This document shows positions 16,598 to 23,796 of a stretch of 64,000 bases of DNA, one piece after another (position 1 is the stretch's first letter; every line of letters begins with the position of its first letter). The notes under the pieces are model-generated. The model worked only from the letters and a program-made list of their open reading frames with translations, did not search any database and had not been told where the DNA came from. Source of the DNA: Euzebya pacifica (GTDB lineage Bacteria > Actinomycetota > Nitriliruptoria > Euzebyales > Euzebyaceae). The DNA lies in NCBI RefSeq assembly GCF_003344865.1, contig NZ_CP031165.1, positions 2,733,910 to 2,797,909 on the forward strand, written 5' to 3'. The translations under genes and the position numbers were made by a program.

Positions 16598-17706
16598 CCG
16601 CGACGTCCTCCCCGTCTTCTGCGAGCTCCCTCGACGGAGCCGCCCTCGACGGCGCTCTGGACGGAGCTGCCCTTGCCGCTGTCGGTCTCCGGGCCGGGTA
16701 CCACGACGGTCGGCAGCCCGTCCCGATCGTCGGGCCCGCCGACCTGTCTGTCCATCGCGGCCGGTTCGTGGCCGTGCTGGGACCCAACGGGGCCGGCAAG
16801 ACGACGCTGCTGCGCACCCTCGGTGGGGTCATCCCCCCGCTGGACGGCCGTGTCACGGCCACCACCGCATCCGGCACGCGCGAGCTGACGAAGATGAAGC
16901 GGGCCGACCGGGCCACCCACATCGCGGTCGTGCTGACCGACCACCCCGACGTCGGACTGCTCCGGGCCCGGGACATCGTGGCGATCGGCCGGCATCCCCA
17001 CACGGGCTGGTCGGGCCGCATGACCGCGCGGGACCACCAGATGGTCGACGACGCCCTCGAGGCGGTCGGGGCGACCCATCTGGCCGATCGTGAGCTGGCC
17101 CGGCTGTCGGACGGCCAGCGCCAGCGGGTGTGGATCGCCCGGGCGCTGGCCCAGGAACCCGCCGTGCTGCTGCTCGACGAACCCACGGCATTCCTGGACC
17201 TGCCCGGTCGGGTCGAGGCCATCGGGCTGCTGCGCAGGCTGGCCGCCACCCGCGACCTGGCCGTGGTCGCGTCCATCCACGACCTCGACCTGGCCCTGCG
17301 CGTCGCCGACACCGCCTGGCTGCTGGACGGCTCGGGCACCGTCGAGGTCGGCGCCCCCGAGGACCTGGCCCTCGACGGGGCGATCGACCGCGCCTTCGGT
17401 CGGGACGACATCCGGTTCGACCTGGCCACGGCGTCGTTCCAGCTGCCCGTTGACTGCTGCGCCGAGGTCTCCGTCACCGGGGTCGACGGCCGTGACCCCG
17501 ACCCGACCCGGGCCCTGTGGACCGGGAGGGCGCTGGCACGGGCCGGTGCCGTCGTGGTCGATCGGTCCGCCTGGTTGACGGTGGAGGTGCTGCCCGACCG
17601 CTGGCGCCTGCGCGGCCCCGAGACCGTGGAGTGCACCACCCTGCAGCAGCTGGCCGAGGCCGTCCGCGCCGCCGGGCTCGTGGTGCCCACCGGCGACCGG
17701 CAGTGA
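16594..17706 (+). CDS. btuD: Corrinoid ABC transporter ATP-binding protein (BtuD type) with C-terminal extension
   Basis: A 370-residue ATPase. It has Walker A GPNGAGKTTLLRTLGG, signature LSDGQRQRVWIARALAQ, Walker B VLLLDEPTAFLDLPGR and the switch His in SIHDLDLALRVAD. Residues 1-35 are a low-complexity leader and the ABC domain ends near residue 260. The remaining 105 or so residues (for example DIRFDLATASFQLPVDCCAE and AGAVVVDRSAWLTVEVLPDR) are an extra C-terminal domain that I do not recognise. GTG 16594 overlaps btuC by 4 bp, and the stop overlaps cobQ by 4 bp. Confidence 0.88.
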   Translation: MTATSSPSSASSLDGAALDGALDGAALAAVGLRAGYHDGRQPVPIVGPADLSVHRGRFVAVLGPNGAGKTTLLRTLGGVIPPLDGRVTATTASGTRELTKMKRADRATHIAVVLTDHPDVGLLRARDIVAIGRHPHTGWSGRMTARDHQMVDDALEAVGATHLADRELARLSDGQRQRVWIARALAQEPAVLLLDEPTAFLDLPGRVEAIGLLRRLAATRDLAVVASIHDLDLALRVADTAWLLDGSGTVEVGAPEDLALDGAIDRAFGRDDIRFDLATASFQLPVDCCAEVSVTGVDGRDPDPTRALWTGRALARAGAVVVDRSAWLTVEVLPDRWRLRGPETVECTTLQQLAEAVRAAGLVVPTGDRQ

Positions 17707-19205
17707 CCCATCCGGCGCCGGCGGTGCTCGTCGCCGGCACGGGCAGCGACGCTGGGAAGACCACCCTCGTCGCAGCCCTCTGTCGCCTGCTGGTCGACCG
17801 CGGCATCGACGTCGCACCGTTCAAGGCCCAGAACATGGCGCTCAACAGCGCGGTCGCCAGCGACGGTGGTGAGATCGGCCGGGCACAGGCGCTGCAGGCA
17901 GCCGCCGCCCGCATCCCCGCCACGACCGCCATGAACCCGATCCTGCTGAAGCCCAGCGGCGACCGGACCAGCCACGTCGTCGTCGACGGCCGGCCGCTGC
18001 AGGAGACCGACGCCGTGGCCTACGGGCCGCTGACGACCCGCCTGTGGCCCCACGTCCGCCGTGCGCTGGCGGACCTGCGGACCCGCCACGAGCTGGTGGT
18101 GTGCGAAGGCGCCGGGGGAGTGGCCGAACCGAACCTGCGCGATCGCGACCTGGTCAACATGGGCCTGGCCGCCGACGCCGACCTGCCCGTCGTGGTCGTC
18201 GGTGACATCGAGCGGGGCGGGGTCTTCGCCAGCCTCTACGGCTCGTGGGCACTGCAGCCCGACGAGGATCGGCAACGGATCCGTGGCTTCGTCATCAACC
18301 GGTTCCGCGGCGACGCCAGCCTGCTCGACCCGGCCATCGAGGACCTGACCGCCCGTACCGGCGTGCCCGTCCTCGGCGTGGTGCCGTGGGTCGACGGCCT
18401 CGGACTTGATGCCGAGGACTCCCTCGGCCTGCGCGATCTCGACGGCGGGCCACCCGTGGGGGAGGAGGGGCTGCGCATCGCCGTCCTCCGCCTGCAGCGG
18501 ATCTCCAACTTCACCGACATCGACGCACTCGGCCGGGAGCCCGGCGTCACCGTGACCTTCACTGAGTCCGCCGCCGCCGTGGCCGACGCCGACCTCGTCG
18601 TCATCCCCGGTACCCGGGCGACCGTGGCCGACCTCGACCGCCTGCGCCAGCTGGGCCTGGACCGTGCCCTGCGGGACCGAGCGACCGCCGGGGGACCGAT
18701 CCTCGGCATCTGCGGTGGCTACCAGATGCTGGGACGTGCCATCACCGACACCGTCGAGGGTGGGGGTGGCACCGTCGCCGGGCTGGGCCTGCTGCCCGTC
18801 GAGACCACGTTCCACGTCGACAAGGTCGTGCGTCGGGTCAGCGGCGACGCCCCGGCGCTCGGGACCGACGCCAGCGGCTACGAGATCCGCCACGGCCGGA
18901 CGACGGTCGACGCCGAGGCGAAGGTCCTGGTCCGCGACGACGACGGACGGCCGGGAGGCGTGGTCGCCGGACCGGTCATGGGTACCTCGTGGCACGGGTT
19001 GGCCGACCACGACGACACCCGCCGGGCCCTGCTGCGGTGGGTGGCCGAGCAGCGCGGGCGCCGGTTCGTGCCCGGCAGCGTCCCTGCCGCCGCACACCGC
19101 GAAGCCGACCTCGACCGCATCGCCGCCGTCGTCGCCGACCACGTCGACGTCGACCGGATGTTGTCCCTCGCGGGCTGGCGGGCCGTCCCGTCGGCGGGCC
19201 GGTGA
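17703..19205 (+). CDS. cobQ: Cobyric acid synthase
   Basis: A 500-residue two-domain amidotransferase that adds four amide groups to adenosylcobyrinic acid a,c-diamide, using glutamine and ATP. The N-terminal ATP-binding domain has GTGSDAGKTTLVAALCRLL and APFKAQNMALNS. The class-I glutamine amidotransferase domain starts near residue 270 (LRIAVLRLQRISNFTDIDAL). It has the nucleophile Cys337 in ILGICGGYQML and the CobQ-type ending GTSWHGL. Length matches CobQ/CbiP (about 480-510). GTG 17703 overlaps btuD by 4 bp, so this biosynthetic enzyme is under the same riboswitch as the importer. Confidence 0.95.
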   Translation: MTHPAPAVLVAGTGSDAGKTTLVAALCRLLVDRGIDVAPFKAQNMALNSAVASDGGEIGRAQALQAAAARIPATTAMNPILLKPSGDRTSHVVVDGRPLQETDAVAYGPLTTRLWPHVRRALADLRTRHELVVCEGAGGVAEPNLRDRDLVNMGLAADADLPVVVVGDIERGGVFASLYGSWALQPDEDRQRIRGFVINRFRGDASLLDPAIEDLTARTGVPVLGVVPWVDGLGLDAEDSLGLRDLDGGPPVGEEGLRIAVLRLQRISNFTDIDALGREPGVTVTFTESAAAVADADLVVIPGTRATVADLDRLRQLGLDRALRDRATAGGPILGICGGYQMLGRAITDTVEGGGGTVAGLGLLPVETTFHVDKVVRRVSGDAPALGTDASGYEIRHGRTTVDAEAKVLVRDDDGRPGGVVAGPVMGTSWHGLADHDDTRRALLRWVAEQRGRRFVPGSVPAAAHREADLDRIAAVVADHVDVDRMLSLAGWRAVPSAGR

Positions 19206-19260
19206 CATCCCGGCCGTCGGCTACCGTGTCGGCCACTCGTCCACCCTGCAGGAGACCCCG

Positions 19261-20256
19261 ATGACCCATCAGCTGGACCTGCCGATCCGGCCGCGTCGCA
19301 ACCGGACCAGCCCCGCGTTGCGTGACCTCGTCCGCGAGACCACCCTGACGCCGGCCGACATGCTGCTGCCGATGTTCCTGCACGTCGACGACCACGACGT
19401 GCCGATCGAGTCCATGCCCGGTGTGACCCGTTGGAGCCTCGATGGGCTCGTGAAGGAGGTCGGCCGGGTTGCGGGCCTGGGCATCCGTGGGGTGGTGCTG
19501 TTCCCCAAGATCGACGACGCGCTGAAGTCCTCCCGGGGCGAGGAGTGCCACAACCCCGACGGGCTGTATCCCCGCGCCATCCGCGCGATCAAGGACGCCC
19601 ACCCCGAGATGCTCGTCATCACCGACGTCGCGCTCGACCCCTACTCCAGCGAGGGGCACGACGGCATCGTCGCCCCCGACGGACGGATCCTCAACGACGA
19701 GACCGTCGAGGTGCTCGCCAAGCAGGCCGTCTGCCAGGCCGACGCGGGCGCCGACATCATCGCGCCGAGCGACATGATGGACGGGCGGGTCGAGGCCATC
19801 CGCGACGCCCTCGATGCCGACGGCCACACCGACGTCGGGATCATGTCCTACACCGCCAAGTACGCCAGCGCCTTCTACGGCCCCTTCCGTGGTGCGCTGG
19901 ACTCCGCCCCCAAGTCGGGCGACAAGAAGACCTACCAGATGGACCCCGGGAACGTCCGCGAGGCGCTCCGCGAGTACGAGCAGGACGTGCTCGAGGGTGC
20001 CGACATGGTCATGGTCAAGCCGGCCGGACCGTACCTCGACGTGATCCGGCGGCTGGCGGAGGTCTCGACGGTGCCGGTCGCTGCCTACCAGGTGAGCGGC
20101 GAGTACCTGATGATCGCCGCGGCCTCGCGGGCCGGTTGGCTCGACGAACGGGCGGTCGCCATCGAGACGTTGACCGGCATCAAGCGTGCCGGGGCCGACA
20201 TCGTCCTGACCTACTACGCCGACCGGGTCGCCGAGTGGCTCCAGACCACCAGCTGA
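19261..20256 (+). CDS. hemB: Delta-aminolevulinic acid dehydratase (porphobilinogen synthase)
   Basis: A 331-residue cytoplasmic enzyme that condenses two 5-aminolevulinates to porphobilinogen, the first common step to haem and the corrin ring. The two active-site lysines are visible: Lys200 in YTAKYASAFYGPFR and the Schiff-base Lys253 in VMVKPAGPYLD. The metal region reads VALDPYSSEGHDG without the Cys cluster, so it belongs to the Zn-independent (Mg-type) class. CAGGAG lies 7 nt before ATG 19261. It sits among cobalamin genes rather than with other hem genes, which suggests precursor supply for corrinoids or a displaced gene. Confidence 0.96.
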   Translation: MTHQLDLPIRPRRNRTSPALRDLVRETTLTPADMLLPMFLHVDDHDVPIESMPGVTRWSLDGLVKEVGRVAGLGIRGVVLFPKIDDALKSSRGEECHNPDGLYPRAIRAIKDAHPEMLVITDVALDPYSSEGHDGIVAPDGRILNDETVEVLAKQAVCQADAGADIIAPSDMMDGRVEAIRDALDADGHTDVGIMSYTAKYASAFYGPFRGALDSAPKSGDKKTYQMDPGNVREALREYEQDVLEGADMVMVKPAGPYLDVIRRLAEVSTVPVAAYQVSGEYLMIAAASRAGWLDERAVAIETLTGIKRAGADIVLTYYADRVAEWLQTTS

Positions 20257-20273
20257 CCGTCGAGGGGGACCGC

Positions 20274-20924
20274 ATGGTCCTCGTCCTCGACCGGCCCCGT
20301 CCCTGCGTGGCTTCCACCATCGTGGGTGGCGGCATCGGCACCGTGCGGACGTGGCTCAACCTGGAGGTGCCGCTGTCCTACGACCGGGTCGACCCGGTCG
20401 CGCACCTGAAGGAACGGGCCGACGACCTCGAGGGGCCGATCGTGGCCACCATGACCGCCGCCGCCGTCGATCGCTGGGTCGAGGGCCGACAGGGCCTGGC
20501 GTGGGTCGTGGCCACCGTGGGTGTGTCGGTGCCGCTGGCTGCGGCCGGCAGCTGGGAACCCCACCACGGCCCGGGGACGATCAACATCGCCGCCGTGCTC
20601 GACGCGCCGCTCGACGACGCCGGCCTGGTCAACGCCGTGCAGACGCTGACCGAGGCCAAGGCGCAGGCCATCGCCGACGCCGGCCTGCTGGCCACCAACC
20701 GTGACGGGGTCGCCACCGGCACGGCGACCGACTCCGTCCTCGTCGCGGCGGCGCCGATCCGGTCCCGCCCCGATGCCATCGACCCCTCGTTGTGGGACGG
20801 CCCGTCGTCCTTCGCCGGCCCCGCCACACGGGTCGGCCACGACCTGGCGATGGCGACCCACACCGCCATCACGGCCGGCGTTGCCCGCTGGCTGGCCGAC
20901 CACCCCTCCACCGGAACCCGCTAG
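20274..20924 (+). CDS. cbiZ: Adenosylcobinamide amidohydrolase
   Basis: A 216-residue CbiZ-family protein. CbiZ removes the aminopropanol side chain of adenosylcobinamide or pseudocobalamin to give adenosylcobyric acid, allowing foreign corrinoids to be remodelled. Matches to the family include STIVGGGIGTVRTWLNLEVP, VATMTAAAVDRW, GTINIAAVLDAPLDDAGLVN and the C-terminal GVATGTATDSVLVAA. It starts 17 bp after hemB with GAGGGGG in front of ATG 20274, and is followed 15 bp later by a BtuF-like protein. With BtuFCD it forms an import-and-remodel route. Confidence 0.9.
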   Translation: MVLVLDRPRPCVASTIVGGGIGTVRTWLNLEVPLSYDRVDPVAHLKERADDLEGPIVATMTAAAVDRWVEGRQGLAWVVATVGVSVPLAAAGSWEPHHGPGTINIAAVLDAPLDDAGLVNAVQTLTEAKAQAIADAGLLATNRDGVATGTATDSVLVAAAPIRSRPDAIDPSLWDGPSSFAGPATRVGHDLAMATHTAITAGVARWLADHPSTGTR

Positions 20925-20939
20925 CCCCAGGAGCCTCTC

Positions 20940-21836
20940 GTGTCCGATGCCATCGCCAGCCTCATCCCGTCCGGAACCGACATCGCCGCTGCCCTCGGGC
21001 TCGGTGATCGGTTGGTCGGCGTCTCCCACGAGTGCGACCACGCGATCGCCGAGGGGAAGCCGGTGCTGACCAGCTCGATCCTCGACCTGACGATGACGCC
21101 GGGCGAGATCGACGCCGCGGTCAGCGCGTCCGTTGCCGACGGCCACAGCCTGTACCGCACCGACCGACCCCTCCTTCACGAGCTCGACCCCGCGCTGGTC
21201 CTCAGCCAGGACGTGTGCGACGTGTGCGCCGTCAACGGTGAGGTCGCCCGTGGCGACGTGCCGGAGGGCGCCGAGCTCATCATGCTGACCGCGGTCCGCC
21301 TGGCCCACCTCTGGGAGGACCTGGCGCGGGTCGGCAAGGCCGCAGGTGTGGTCGACGCCGCCGAACGCGTGATCGCTGACGCCAAGCAGGACCTGACGGC
21401 GGTCGCCGAGTCGGTGGCCGGTGTGGAGCGACCCCGCATCGTGGCGCTGGAGTGGGGCGACCCGTACTTCATCGCTGGCCACTGGGTGCCCGAGCTGATC
21501 GACCTCGCCGGCGGCGTCGACGCGTTGGCGCAGCCGGGTGAGGCATCCCGCCGGGTCACCCCCGAGGAGGTTGCCGAGGCCGACCCCGACATGATCCTGT
21601 TCGTCCCCTGCGGCTACTCCCTCGAGCAGTCGGTGGAGGAGGCACGCGGCCTGCCGCTCGCCGGCCTGCGTGCCGTCGAGGAAGGCCGGTTCTGGGCGAT
21701 GGACGCCACCCGGCTGTTCAGCCGCTGCACCCCGCAGGCCGTCGTCAGCGGCGCCCGCGCGCTGGCCTCGGTCATGCACCCCGACCGCGCCGGCACCCCC
21801 ACCCCCGCCGACGCCGTCCGCATCACCCTCCCCTGA
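20940..21836 (+). CDS. Signal-less BtuF-like cobalamin-binding protein
   Basis: A 298-residue class III periplasmic-binding fold (COG0614) that starts directly with IASLIPSGTDIAAALGLGDRLVGVSHECD and has no signal peptide or lipobox. It carries the motif LSQDVCDVCAVNGE found in a distinct bacterial and archaeal branch annotated as cobalamin-binding. The C-terminal part has AEADPDMILFVPCGYSLEQS and FWAMDATRLFSRCTPQAV. GTG 20940 has AGGAG 6 nt upstream. Lacking export signals it is probably cytoplasmic, perhaps as a corrinoid carrier or sensor for the adjacent CbiZ; this is inference from context. Confidence 0.83.
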   Translation: MSDAIASLIPSGTDIAAALGLGDRLVGVSHECDHAIAEGKPVLTSSILDLTMTPGEIDAAVSASVADGHSLYRTDRPLLHELDPALVLSQDVCDVCAVNGEVARGDVPEGAELIMLTAVRLAHLWEDLARVGKAAGVVDAAERVIADAKQDLTAVAESVAGVERPRIVALEWGDPYFIAGHWVPELIDLAGGVDALAQPGEASRRVTPEEVAEADPDMILFVPCGYSLEQSVEEARGLPLAGLRAVEEGRFWAMDATRLFSRCTPQAVVSGARALASVMHPDRAGTPTPADAVRITLP

Positions 21837-21990: not shown

Positions 21991-22401
21991 TCAGGTCGAC
22001 CAGAGCCAGCCGGAGCGGTCGGCGGGGGAGTAGCGGTAGACGGGACGGCCGAGGACCAGGCGTCGGGGGACCGGGCCGAAATGGCGGGAGTCGGTGCTGG
22101 CCGACGGGTTGTCGCCACGCACCGTGACGGTGCGACGGTCCACCGCATCCGCCCGCTTGACCAGCAGCAGGCCGGGGTTGCGAGGGTGGCTCACCACCAC
22201 GAGGCAGCCCGGCCGGACGGGGCCAGGGAGGACCAGCAGGCGGTCGCCGGGCAGCAGCGTCGGCAGCATGCTCGGTCCCTCCACCGTGACCCGGGGAAGG
22301 GTCACCAGGCGGGCCGTTCCGAGGAGCACGGCGAGCAGGACGGCCACTGCAGGCTTCGTGACAGAGCGGGGGGTTGGTGCCGGGTCGGATGGTGGGGGCA
22401 T
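21991..22401 (-). CDS. sodX: Ni-superoxide dismutase maturation protease (signal peptidase I-like)
   Basis: A 136-residue S26-family peptidase. After an N-terminal membrane helix (VAVLLAVLLGTARLV) it has the catalytic Ser in VEGPSMLPTLLPGD and the general-base Lys in LLLVKRADAV, followed by RGDN. It is much shorter than LepB and is divergently placed 53 bp from the Ni-SOD gene. That arrangement matches SodX, which trims the Ni-SOD propeptide so that His1 can bind nickel. It ends beside the 50-bp repeat array. Confidence 0.88.
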   Translation of the reverse strand: MPPPSDPAPTPRSVTKPAVAVLLAVLLGTARLVTLPRVTVEGPSMLPTLLPGDRLLVLPGPVRPGCLVVVSHPRNPGLLLVKRADAVDRRTVTVRGDNPSASTDSRHFGPVPRRLVLGRPVYRYSPADRSGWLWST

Positions 22402-22454
22402 GGGTAGCTAGAGTGTGGCCCGCTTTGCTGTCCACCCCCACAAGGAGAACCAGA

Positions 22455-22868
22455 ATGCTCCAGCGAATCCTCGCCCTGACCGACCGCGTCAGCGCCCCGC
22501 GCACGGCGCACGCCCACTGCGACCTGATGTGTGGTGTCTACGACCCCGCCCAGGCCCGCATCGAGGCCGAGTCGGTCCTCAAGATCACCGAGAAGTACCA
22601 GGACAGCGACGACCCGGTCTTCAAGGACCGCGCGATCTTCATCAAGGAAGAGCGCGCCGAGCTGGTCAAGCACCACCTGTCCGTGCTGTGGACCGACTAC
22701 TTCAAGCCGCCGCACGTCGAGCAGTTCCCGCAGCTGCACGACCTGTTCTGGCGCGCCATCAAGGCCGCTGGTGACGCCAAGAAGAGCGTCGACCCGGCCG
22801 ACGGCCAGAAGCTGCTCGACCTGATCGACGAGATCGCCGAGATCTTCGCCGAGACCAAGAAGGGTTAG
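22455..22868 (+). CDS. sodN: Nickel-dependent superoxide dismutase precursor, variant Ni-hook
   Basis: A 137-residue NiSOD. A 20-residue leader ends before His21, which becomes mature His1. The hook reads HCDLMCGVYDP, with metal ligands His21, Cys22 and Cys26. The usual hook is HCDLPCGVYDP, so position 5 is Met in place of Pro. The rest of the four-helix protein is typical (ARIEAESVLKITEKYQ; TDYFKPPHVEQFPQLHDLFW). The enzyme is a hexamer that dismutates superoxide. ATG 22455 follows AAGGAG. The maturation protease gene is divergent, and a hairpin terminator follows the stop. Confidence 0.95.
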   Translation: MLQRILALTDRVSAPRTAHAHCDLMCGVYDPAQARIEAESVLKITEKYQDSDDPVFKDRAIFIKEERAELVKHHLSVLWTDYFKPPHVEQFPQLHDLFWRAIKAAGDAKKSVDPADGQKLLDLIDEIAEIFAETKKG

Positions 22869-22889
22869 CAGCCCGCAGTATCCGAGGCC

Positions 22890-22918
22890 ACGCCCCGACC
22901 CCCGCGGTCGGGGCGTCG
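22890..22918 (+). terminator. Hairpin terminator after sodN
   Basis: The perfect 10-bp stem CGCCCCGACC / GGTCGGGGCG (22891-22900 with 22906-22915) has a 5-nt loop, followed by TCGTCGTTCG. There is no clear U-run, so termination may be weak. It lies between the sodN stop and the hydratase gene. Confidence 0.65.
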
Positions 22919-22950
22919 TCGTTCGTGCGGTCAGCTGGTAGACCACCACC

Positions 22951-23796
22951 ATGCCGATCGACATCGATGCCCTGCTGGCCGCCGACCCCATCGAGTGGGA
23001 CTCCTCCTGGACACAGAAGGACGTGATCCTGTACCACCTCGGGATCGGCGCCGGCGTGCCGGCCACCGACCCCGCCGAGCTGCGGCTCACCTACGAACCC
23101 GACCTAGTGGTCATGCCGTCCTTCGGGACGGTGCCGGGCTTCCTGCCCATCCCGTCCTACGCCGACCTGCCCGGGTTCGACATCGACCTGCGCATGCTCG
23201 TCCACGGCGAGCACGACCTGGTCCTGCACCGGCCGCTGCCGACGGAGGCGACCGCCACCTCGAGCGCCCGCGCGACCGGGGTGTACGACAAGCGGTCCGG
23301 CGCGTCGGTGGTCTTCGAGAACACCACCACGGTCGACGGCGAGCCGATCGCGACCAACACCATGACGGCCTTCATCCGTGGCGAGGGTGGATTCGGTGGC
23401 GACTCCGGCCCGTCCGGTGACCGGATCCGTCCGCCGAGGCGTGATCCCGACGCCGTCGTCGAGACGCCGACCCTGGAGCAGCAGGCCCTGCTGTACCGGT
23501 TGAGCGGCGACGCCAACCCCCTGCACGCCGACCCGGCCTTCGCGGCCGTCGGTGGGTTCGAGCGCCCCATCCTCCACGGCATGTGCACCTTCGGCATCGC
23601 CTGCAAGGCCGCCGTCCACGCGCTCCTCGACGGCGACACCACCGCCGTCACCCGCTACCAGGCACGGTTCTCCGGTGTGGTCCTGCCCGGTGACACCCTC
23701 ACCCACTCGCTGTGGCGAGAGGACGACGGCATCGTCATCGAGAGCCGCGTCGACGACCGGGCGGTCCTCAAGCAGGCCAGGCTCACCGTCGGCTGA
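22951..23796 (+). CDS. MaoC-family (3R)-hydroxyacyl-CoA hydratase-like protein
   Basis: A 281-residue double hot-dog protein of the hydratase-2 type. The C-terminal half carries the catalytic signature YRLSGDANPLHADPAFA with RPILHGMCTFG, the Asp/His pair that adds water across trans-2-enoyl-CoA to give (3R)-hydroxyacyl-CoA. The N-terminal hot-dog half (VILYHLGIGAGVPATDPAEL) lacks these residues, as in eukaryotic MFE-2 hydratases and mycobacterial homologues. Likely cytoplasmic and in fatty-acid or polyester metabolism. Transcribed separately from sodN. Confidence 0.9.
   Translation: MPIDIDALLAADPIEWDSSWTQKDVILYHLGIGAGVPATDPAELRLTYEPDLVVMPSFGTVPGFLPIPSYADLPGFDIDLRMLVHGEHDLVLHRPLPTEATATSSARATGVYDKRSGASVVFENTTTVDGEPIATNTMTAFIRGEGGFGGDSGPSGDRIRPPRRDPDAVVETPTLEQQALLYRLSGDANPLHADPAFAAVGGFERPILHGMCTFGIACKAAVHALLDGDTTAVTRYQARFSGVVLPGDTLTHSLWREDDGIVIESRVDDRAVLKQARLTVG

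Follow-up and report, generated by a model that had tools for sequence, protein, structure and literature searches.

Methionine in place of the hook proline is a lineage trait among nickel superoxide dismutases

Introduction

Can a nickel superoxide dismutase (Ni-SOD) do without the proline of its nickel hook? In Ni-SOD crystal structures, Pro5 forms a cis peptide. The question arises at the sodN gene of a 64,000-nucleotide stretch of Euzebya pacifica DNA (the window), whose product has methionine at this position. A preliminary description of the locus, made from the letters of the DNA, recognized a Ni-SOD and regarded Met5 as an individual oddity whose thioether was the point of interest. 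Here, we place the gene among its homologues, ask whether its product is likely to work, and weigh what residue 5 may do in the hook.

The sodN gene and its product

The precursor translated from the window gene (Table 1) reads MLQRILALTDRVSAPRTAHA and then HCDLMCGVYDPAQARIEAESV..., with the hook HCDLMCGVYDP directly after MLQRILALTDRVSAPRTAHA. Its identification as a Ni-SOD in the preliminary description is borne out by profile searches, in which it scored 161.4 bits against TIGR02753 (sodN; curated cut-off 90) and 151.2 bits against PF09055 (curated cut-off 25), as well as by its fold and by a neighbouring sodX. The AF2 model, with a mean pLDDT of 94, has the helical-bundle fold of a Ni-SOD subunit and matches Ni-SOD crystal structures with TM 0.91-0.94 and 63-65% identity; the 16 PDB structure matches at E <= 0.001 are without exception Ni-SOD chains (best E 3.5e-12). 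The hook itself has low confidence in the AF2 models, with a block mean of 65 in the Met5 protein and 64 in a Pro5 homologue. The reading of methionine for Pro5 also holds: the codon is ATG, and proline occupies this position in all five readable sequences of the six solved Ni-SODs in the PDB copy used.

Table 1. Features of the sodN-sodX locus (window coordinates).
Feature	Coordinates	Strand	Basis
sodN (137 aa), precursor of the Ni-type superoxide dismutase	22455..22868	+	ORF, translation, TIGR02753, PF09055, AF2 match
N-terminal propeptide, 20 residues, ending ...AHA before His1	22455..22514	+	Sequence; conserved Ala at -1
Nickel hook HCDLMCGVYDP	22515..22547	+	Sequence; invariant ligand residues
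Met5 codon ATG, at the Pro5 position	22527..22529	+	Codon reading; alignment to PDB Ni-SOD sequences
Plausible ribosome-binding site AAGGAG, 7 nt 5' of the sodN start	22442..22447	+	Sequence reading
sodX (136 aa), maturation protease for Ni-SOD; divergent from sodN	21991..22401	-	TIGR02754, 86 bits (cut-off 63.25); PF10502, 55 bits

The starts of sodX and sodN are separated by 53 bases. From family knowledge, we take SodX to be the protease that cuts the SodN propeptide. The nickel ligands His1, Cys2 and Cys6 follow the propeptide directly and would be exposed upon its removal. Residue -1 is alanine in all 66 distinct Met5 sequences and in 137 of 139 Pro5 sequences, and, within the sequence retrieved around each gene, a sodX-like ORF accompanies 62/66 distinct Met5 genes and 136/139 Pro5 genes. 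The remaining neighbours of the pair have other roles; positions 17517-21836, upstream of sodX, hold a CobQ-like cobyric acid synthase, an ALA dehydratase and a Peripla_BP_2 binding protein, a tetrapyrrole/B12-like neighbourhood. A promoter scan of positions 22300-22960 found none. Homology, ligands and fold, together with the partner protease, identify the product of the window gene as SodN, one that lies outside the narrow published hook consensus.

Distribution of Met5

A census was built from every Ni-SOD match in 396 sampled genomes of the window's phylum (108 with Ni-SOD) and 66 genomes of its class (56 with Ni-SOD), giving 131 loci at which the hook was read. Residue 5 is proline in 76, methionine in 42, tyrosine in 11 and phenylalanine in two. 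Within the window's class, 38 of 56 loci have Met5, 17 Pro5 and one Phe5, unevenly spread over the families: Met5 is found in 28/28 loci of family f4, in four loci of the window's own family f1 (the fifth has Phe5) and in six of f3 beside 12 with Pro5, and the four loci of f2 and the single one of f5 are Pro5. Three other genomes of the window's genus (L039, L048, L055) share Met5. The alignment suggested in the preliminary description thus finds Met5 widespread (42/131), and the idea of an individual oddity falls away: Met5 is a lineage trait, and the window gene, taken singly, is ordinary for its class.

These counts also bear on a sequencing or assembly error at the Met5 codon, an explanation raised at the outset and one in whose favour nothing was counted. 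The same codon is present in the three same-genus genomes and throughout the 42 Met5 loci of the census, the window's own included. Among the 12 nearest relatives of the window gene, all Met5, fourfold-degenerate third positions are 46-72% identical and the Met codon is retained. Because relatives share the methionine while fourfold-degenerate positions have drifted, a base-call error was ruled out; we give it practically no chance.

A wider scan of 84,980 species genomes with a Met5 hook pattern, allowing any NTN codon at residue 4, returned 54 stretches, and all 53 readable ones are Met5 Ni-SODs with Leu4. Record titles assign them to Nitriliruptoraceae, Nitriliruptorales and Euzebyales, to Acidimicrobiia, Saccharibacteria and Spechtbacteria, and to a few others. 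One record, L176 (JACZWZ010000019.1), is titled Acidobacteria; its phylum search gave the window's actinobacterial genomes, so the title is probably wrong. Sampling the phylum of one Saccharibacteria locus, which GTDB places in Patescibacteria, showed a Ni-SOD in 30 of 379 genomes, with 27 Pro5, two Met5 and one Ala5.

With codon 5 left free, the hook pattern was found in 159 of 296 genomes of a second actinobacterial class, apparently Acidimicrobiia. Among the 150 matches listed there, read by eye, residue 5 is proline in 68 (34 from one genus), phenylalanine in 46, tyrosine in 22 and methionine in 14, so that 82 hooks lack Pro5. The class with Streptomyces-like genomes gave the pattern in 228 of 355 genomes; by eye, the matches listed comprise 13 Tyr5 hooks, all from genus g57, one off-target and otherwise Pro5. 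Hooks with a deviation at another position, such as L121 with Thr8, escape such patterns. Among the matches listed, Pro5 is near-fixed in the class with Streptomyces-like genomes, and it is not so elsewhere. Viral contigs and phage records yielded no Ni-SOD, and a plasmid search gave two Ni-SOD matches, both Pro5. On plasmid NZ_CP141945.1 of Novosphingobium sp. RL4, locus L247 has the hook HCDIPCKIYDP, in which lysine replaces Gly7.

Conservation and predicted function

Residue conservation was read from two sets of distinct sequences. The first, of 177 rows, derives from the 244 of 245 loci with a hook (sodN is cut off in L174) after removal of two short sequences (L140, L153) and 65 identical ones; L216-L245, 30 duplicates from a resampling of the window's phylum, were removed as identical sequences. 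The second, of 273 rows, leaves out L140, L153, L215 and L279 as short and L174, which has no hook, with identical sequences merged. Some Phe5, Tyr5 and Met5 loci were chosen by residue 5 and are left out of the census; the composition of the larger set, 139 Pro, 66 Met, 41 Phe, 26 Tyr and one Ala, therefore includes partly selected Phe and Tyr rows.

His1, Cys2, Cys6 and Tyr9, correctly described at the outset as retained, are invariant in all 177 sequences of the first set, together with Asp3 and Gly7. E17, R39, K44, E45, H54, W59 and K89 are kept in 78/78 non-Pro sequences of the same set. Other positions vary. Asp10 is replaced in many Met5 enzymes (21 Asn and 10 Tyr among 64 Met5 sequences; L034, L040-L047, L056-L076, mostly f4). 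In the window's class, the Pro5 enzymes L068 and L077-L083, with HCDIPC hooks, have Arg, His or Trp for Tyr62. Glu17 and Arg47, presumably the residues that hydrogen-bond His1 in Streptomyces Ni-SOD, are replaced by Ala17 and His47 in 21 Pro5 sequences, taken to be mainly the Patescibacteria rows L186-L215.

In the genome that contains the window (98.38% complete), a search for three SOD families found a single member, the Ni-SOD; the other two families were judged by the Pfam models for Fe/Mn-SOD and Cu/Zn-SOD, neither of which had a match there. Neither family is present in 36 of the 38 Met5 genomes of the class. Cu/Zn-SOD occurs in 7/66 genomes of the class, two of them Met5 genomes (G051, G075), and Fe/Mn-SOD in 2/66 (G279, G405); both of the latter have no Ni-SOD match, which looks like one enzyme replacing the other. 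Among 30 further genomes checked outside the class, both families are absent from 13/13 Met5, 1/1 Phe5, 1/1 Ala5 and 7/11 Tyr5 genomes, absences that weigh less for several small and possibly incomplete Patescibacteria genomes. In genus g57, all four Tyr5 genomes have Cu/Zn-SOD and three of them Fe/Mn-SOD, and Fe/Mn-SOD occurs in 2/4 Pro5 comparator genomes. Since it is the sole recognized SOD in its own genome and its counterparts are so in 36/38 Met5 genomes of the class, the window's Met5 SodN is very probably functional.

The Met5 proteins could conversely be degenerate or moonlighting homologues with little SOD activity, given that the residue they lost belongs to a hook printed as conserved, H2N-HCXXPCXXY, in a 2026 paper (PMC12933891). 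However, all ligands and sodX are retained, the protein is the sole recognized SOD in most Met5 genomes, and conservation across the class is strong, all of which makes such a loss of activity very improbable.

The role of residue 5

In the mechanism that we propose for the functional enzyme, once the 20-residue propeptide is removed, nickel would be bound as in Streptomyces Ni-SOD, by His1 (amine and imidazole), Cys2 (amide and thiolate) and Cys6 (thiolate), and cycling between Ni(II) and Ni(III) would dismute superoxide. Residue 5 would serve as a spacer between the two cysteine ligands. Pro5 would pre-form the turn in the textbook enzyme; in its place, a bulky hydrophobic residue (Met here, Phe or Tyr elsewhere) may pack there, the folded protein rather than proline keeping the hook in position. 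Peptide maquettes whose Leu4-Pro5 bond was modelled as trans bind nickel, and their rate of superoxide dismutation is about 10^6 per M per s (PMC5722923). Their activity suggests more than one way of forming the hook turn, and the cis bond seems, by analogy with these peptides, not to be obligatory for basic Ni-SOD chemistry. As the maquettes are far slower than native SOD, activity may still suffer with a trans hook.

Alternatively, Met5 may be a tuned second-sphere residue or alternative ligand, whose thioether, placed by the open axial site, alters redox potential, substrate access or protection of the sulfurs. Methionine accounts for 38 of the 39 non-Pro loci of the window's class, by far the commonest choice, and retention of ATG despite strong synonymous divergence indicates selection on residue 5. 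Yet otherwise identical hooks have Phe in 41, Tyr in 26 and Ala in one of the 273 sequences, none of which offers a thioether, and in the window's own family L037 combines Phe5 with retained Tyr62 and Lys64. This interchangeability among homologues argues against a special role of the thioether, which is ruled out as an essential function, and we consider the tuned-ligand explanation unlikely. The emphasis that the preliminary description laid on sulfur is accordingly not sustained, and an effect of residue 5 on hook geometry, which it also raised, is possible.

The single alanine apart, the replacements at position 5 have bulk and hydrophobicity in common, not sulfur, and so a packing or spacer role is favoured over a thioether-metal contact. 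Judged from the sequences, the hook proline appears dispensable across large bacterial groups. Overall, we think it likely, with good confidence, that the window encodes a working, SodX-processed Ni-SOD from a large natural subfamily that dropped the hook proline, residue 5 acting as a spacer; we infer activity, nickel loading and the packing role.

Origin of the proline-free hook

A quick tree of the 177 sequences, built without column 5, has four Pro/non-Pro changes when left free. Its starred clade of 64 rows around the window (SH-aLRT 96) is entirely non-Pro, with 51 Met, 11 Tyr and two Phe. A single clade of all 78 non-Pro rows is not rejected by the AU test, applied to the 177-sequence tree only (p 0.306), and constraining 77 of them together (without L163) gives a likelihood slightly better than that of the free tree. 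The best topology of a quick 273-row tree has seven Pro/non-Pro changes, and the smallest starred set around the window there includes some Pro5 rows. The simplest reading, and a likely one, is a single ancient loss of Pro5 with transfers, for example to Saccharibacteria.

Position 62 varies along with position 5. Tyr62, which we take to be the tyrosine of the substrate pocket, is retained in 63/66 Met5 and 131/139 Pro5 sequences and is replaced by Phe62 in 26/26 Tyr5 and 40/41 Phe5 sequences; Phe62 is thus found in 66 of 67 sequences with an aromatic residue 5 versus 3 of 206 others, the exception to the pairing being L037, with Phe5 and Tyr62. Besides Phe62, all 26 Tyr5 sequences have Thr, Ala or Ser for Lys64 and His83 for Lys83; loci remodelled in this way are L117, L119, L122-L129 and L131, and further, for example, L254, L255 and L341-L349. 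The pocket tyrosine seems to have been lost from position 62 and, in one group, to have reappeared at position 5. Genome G304 has two Met5 sodN copies, L114 and L120, one with Tyr62 and the other with Phe62.

Because the tree has only one Tyr62-to-Phe62 change, the association goes back to a single ancestor; a test of independent pairs is powerless, and the covariation was set aside as proof of a contact and kept as a lead only. The same caution applies to Leu4 and Lys90, present in 134/134 non-Pro sequences versus 102/139 and 45/139 Pro5 sequences, respectively: functional coupling was not accepted beyond a lead, and shared descent may explain the fixation.

A more far-reaching scenario is conceivable, which we hold to be doubtful. 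Loss of Pro5 may have founded a subfamily with a differently built hook, in which a non-proline Leu4-X5 bond is cis or trans and the free amide of residue 5 lies near the thiolates, with a different second-sphere tuning. One branch would then have rebuilt its pocket, residue 62 losing the tyrosine hydroxyl and position 5 becoming Phe or Tyr, so that the tyrosine moved from 62 to 5 and Lys64 was lost. The Met5/Tyr62 combination of the window would be a surviving intermediate.

Significance and comparison with known systems

The published consensus H2N-HCXXPCXXY is not matched by the window's SodN, owing to Met5, and fails in 55/131 census loci; it therefore describes a subset of the family and does not define it. 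A full-text search of open-access papers for the hooks HCDLMC, HCDLYC and HCDLFC found no paper. In the same literature, we found no discussion of Pro5 replacement in Ni-SODs, with prior mention possible elsewhere, and no activity, metal or structural measurement on any Met5 enzyme. The solved Ni-SODs compared here and the peptide mimics have Pro5. Most enzymes of the window's class break this rule, as do about half of the matches listed for the apparently acidimicrobial class, and nearly all of those listed for the class with Streptomyces-like genomes follow it. Large bacterial groups thus appear able to dispense with the hook proline, and the description of the hook as conserved deserves correction. 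Natural variants without Pro5 allow its role to be measured without destabilizing artificial mutants, and their hooks widen the motif to be used in Ni-SOD searches.

The closest comparison is with the Streptomyces enzymes 1t6u and 1q0d, which we take to be the Ni-SODs of Streptomyces coelicolor and S. seoulensis. The window's SodN shares their fold and aligns with them free of gaps (TM 0.91-0.94, 63-65% identity), and it has in common with them all nickel ligands, Tyr9, Glu17, Arg47, Tyr62, Lys64 and Lys89. It differs at hook position 5, where Streptomyces has proline. With the Tyr5 and Phe5 Ni-SODs of other Actinomycetota (e.g. L117, L122, L308-L349), it shares the absence of Pro5, the same ligands, Leu4 and Lys90. 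In contrast to those enzymes, of which 66/67 have Phe62 and all 26 Tyr5 members lack Lys64 and have His83, it carries Tyr62, Lys64 and Lys83. The cyanobacterial Ni-SOD resembles it in the HCD..C hook and in PF09055; unlike the window's SodN, the cyanobacterial hook, printed as HCDGPCVYDPA, has the proline, and glycine at position 4 (PMC2234264). The maquettes HCDLPCG(VY..) (PMC5722923) reproduce the minimal hook as in Ni-SOD, but as an isolated peptide with Pro5.
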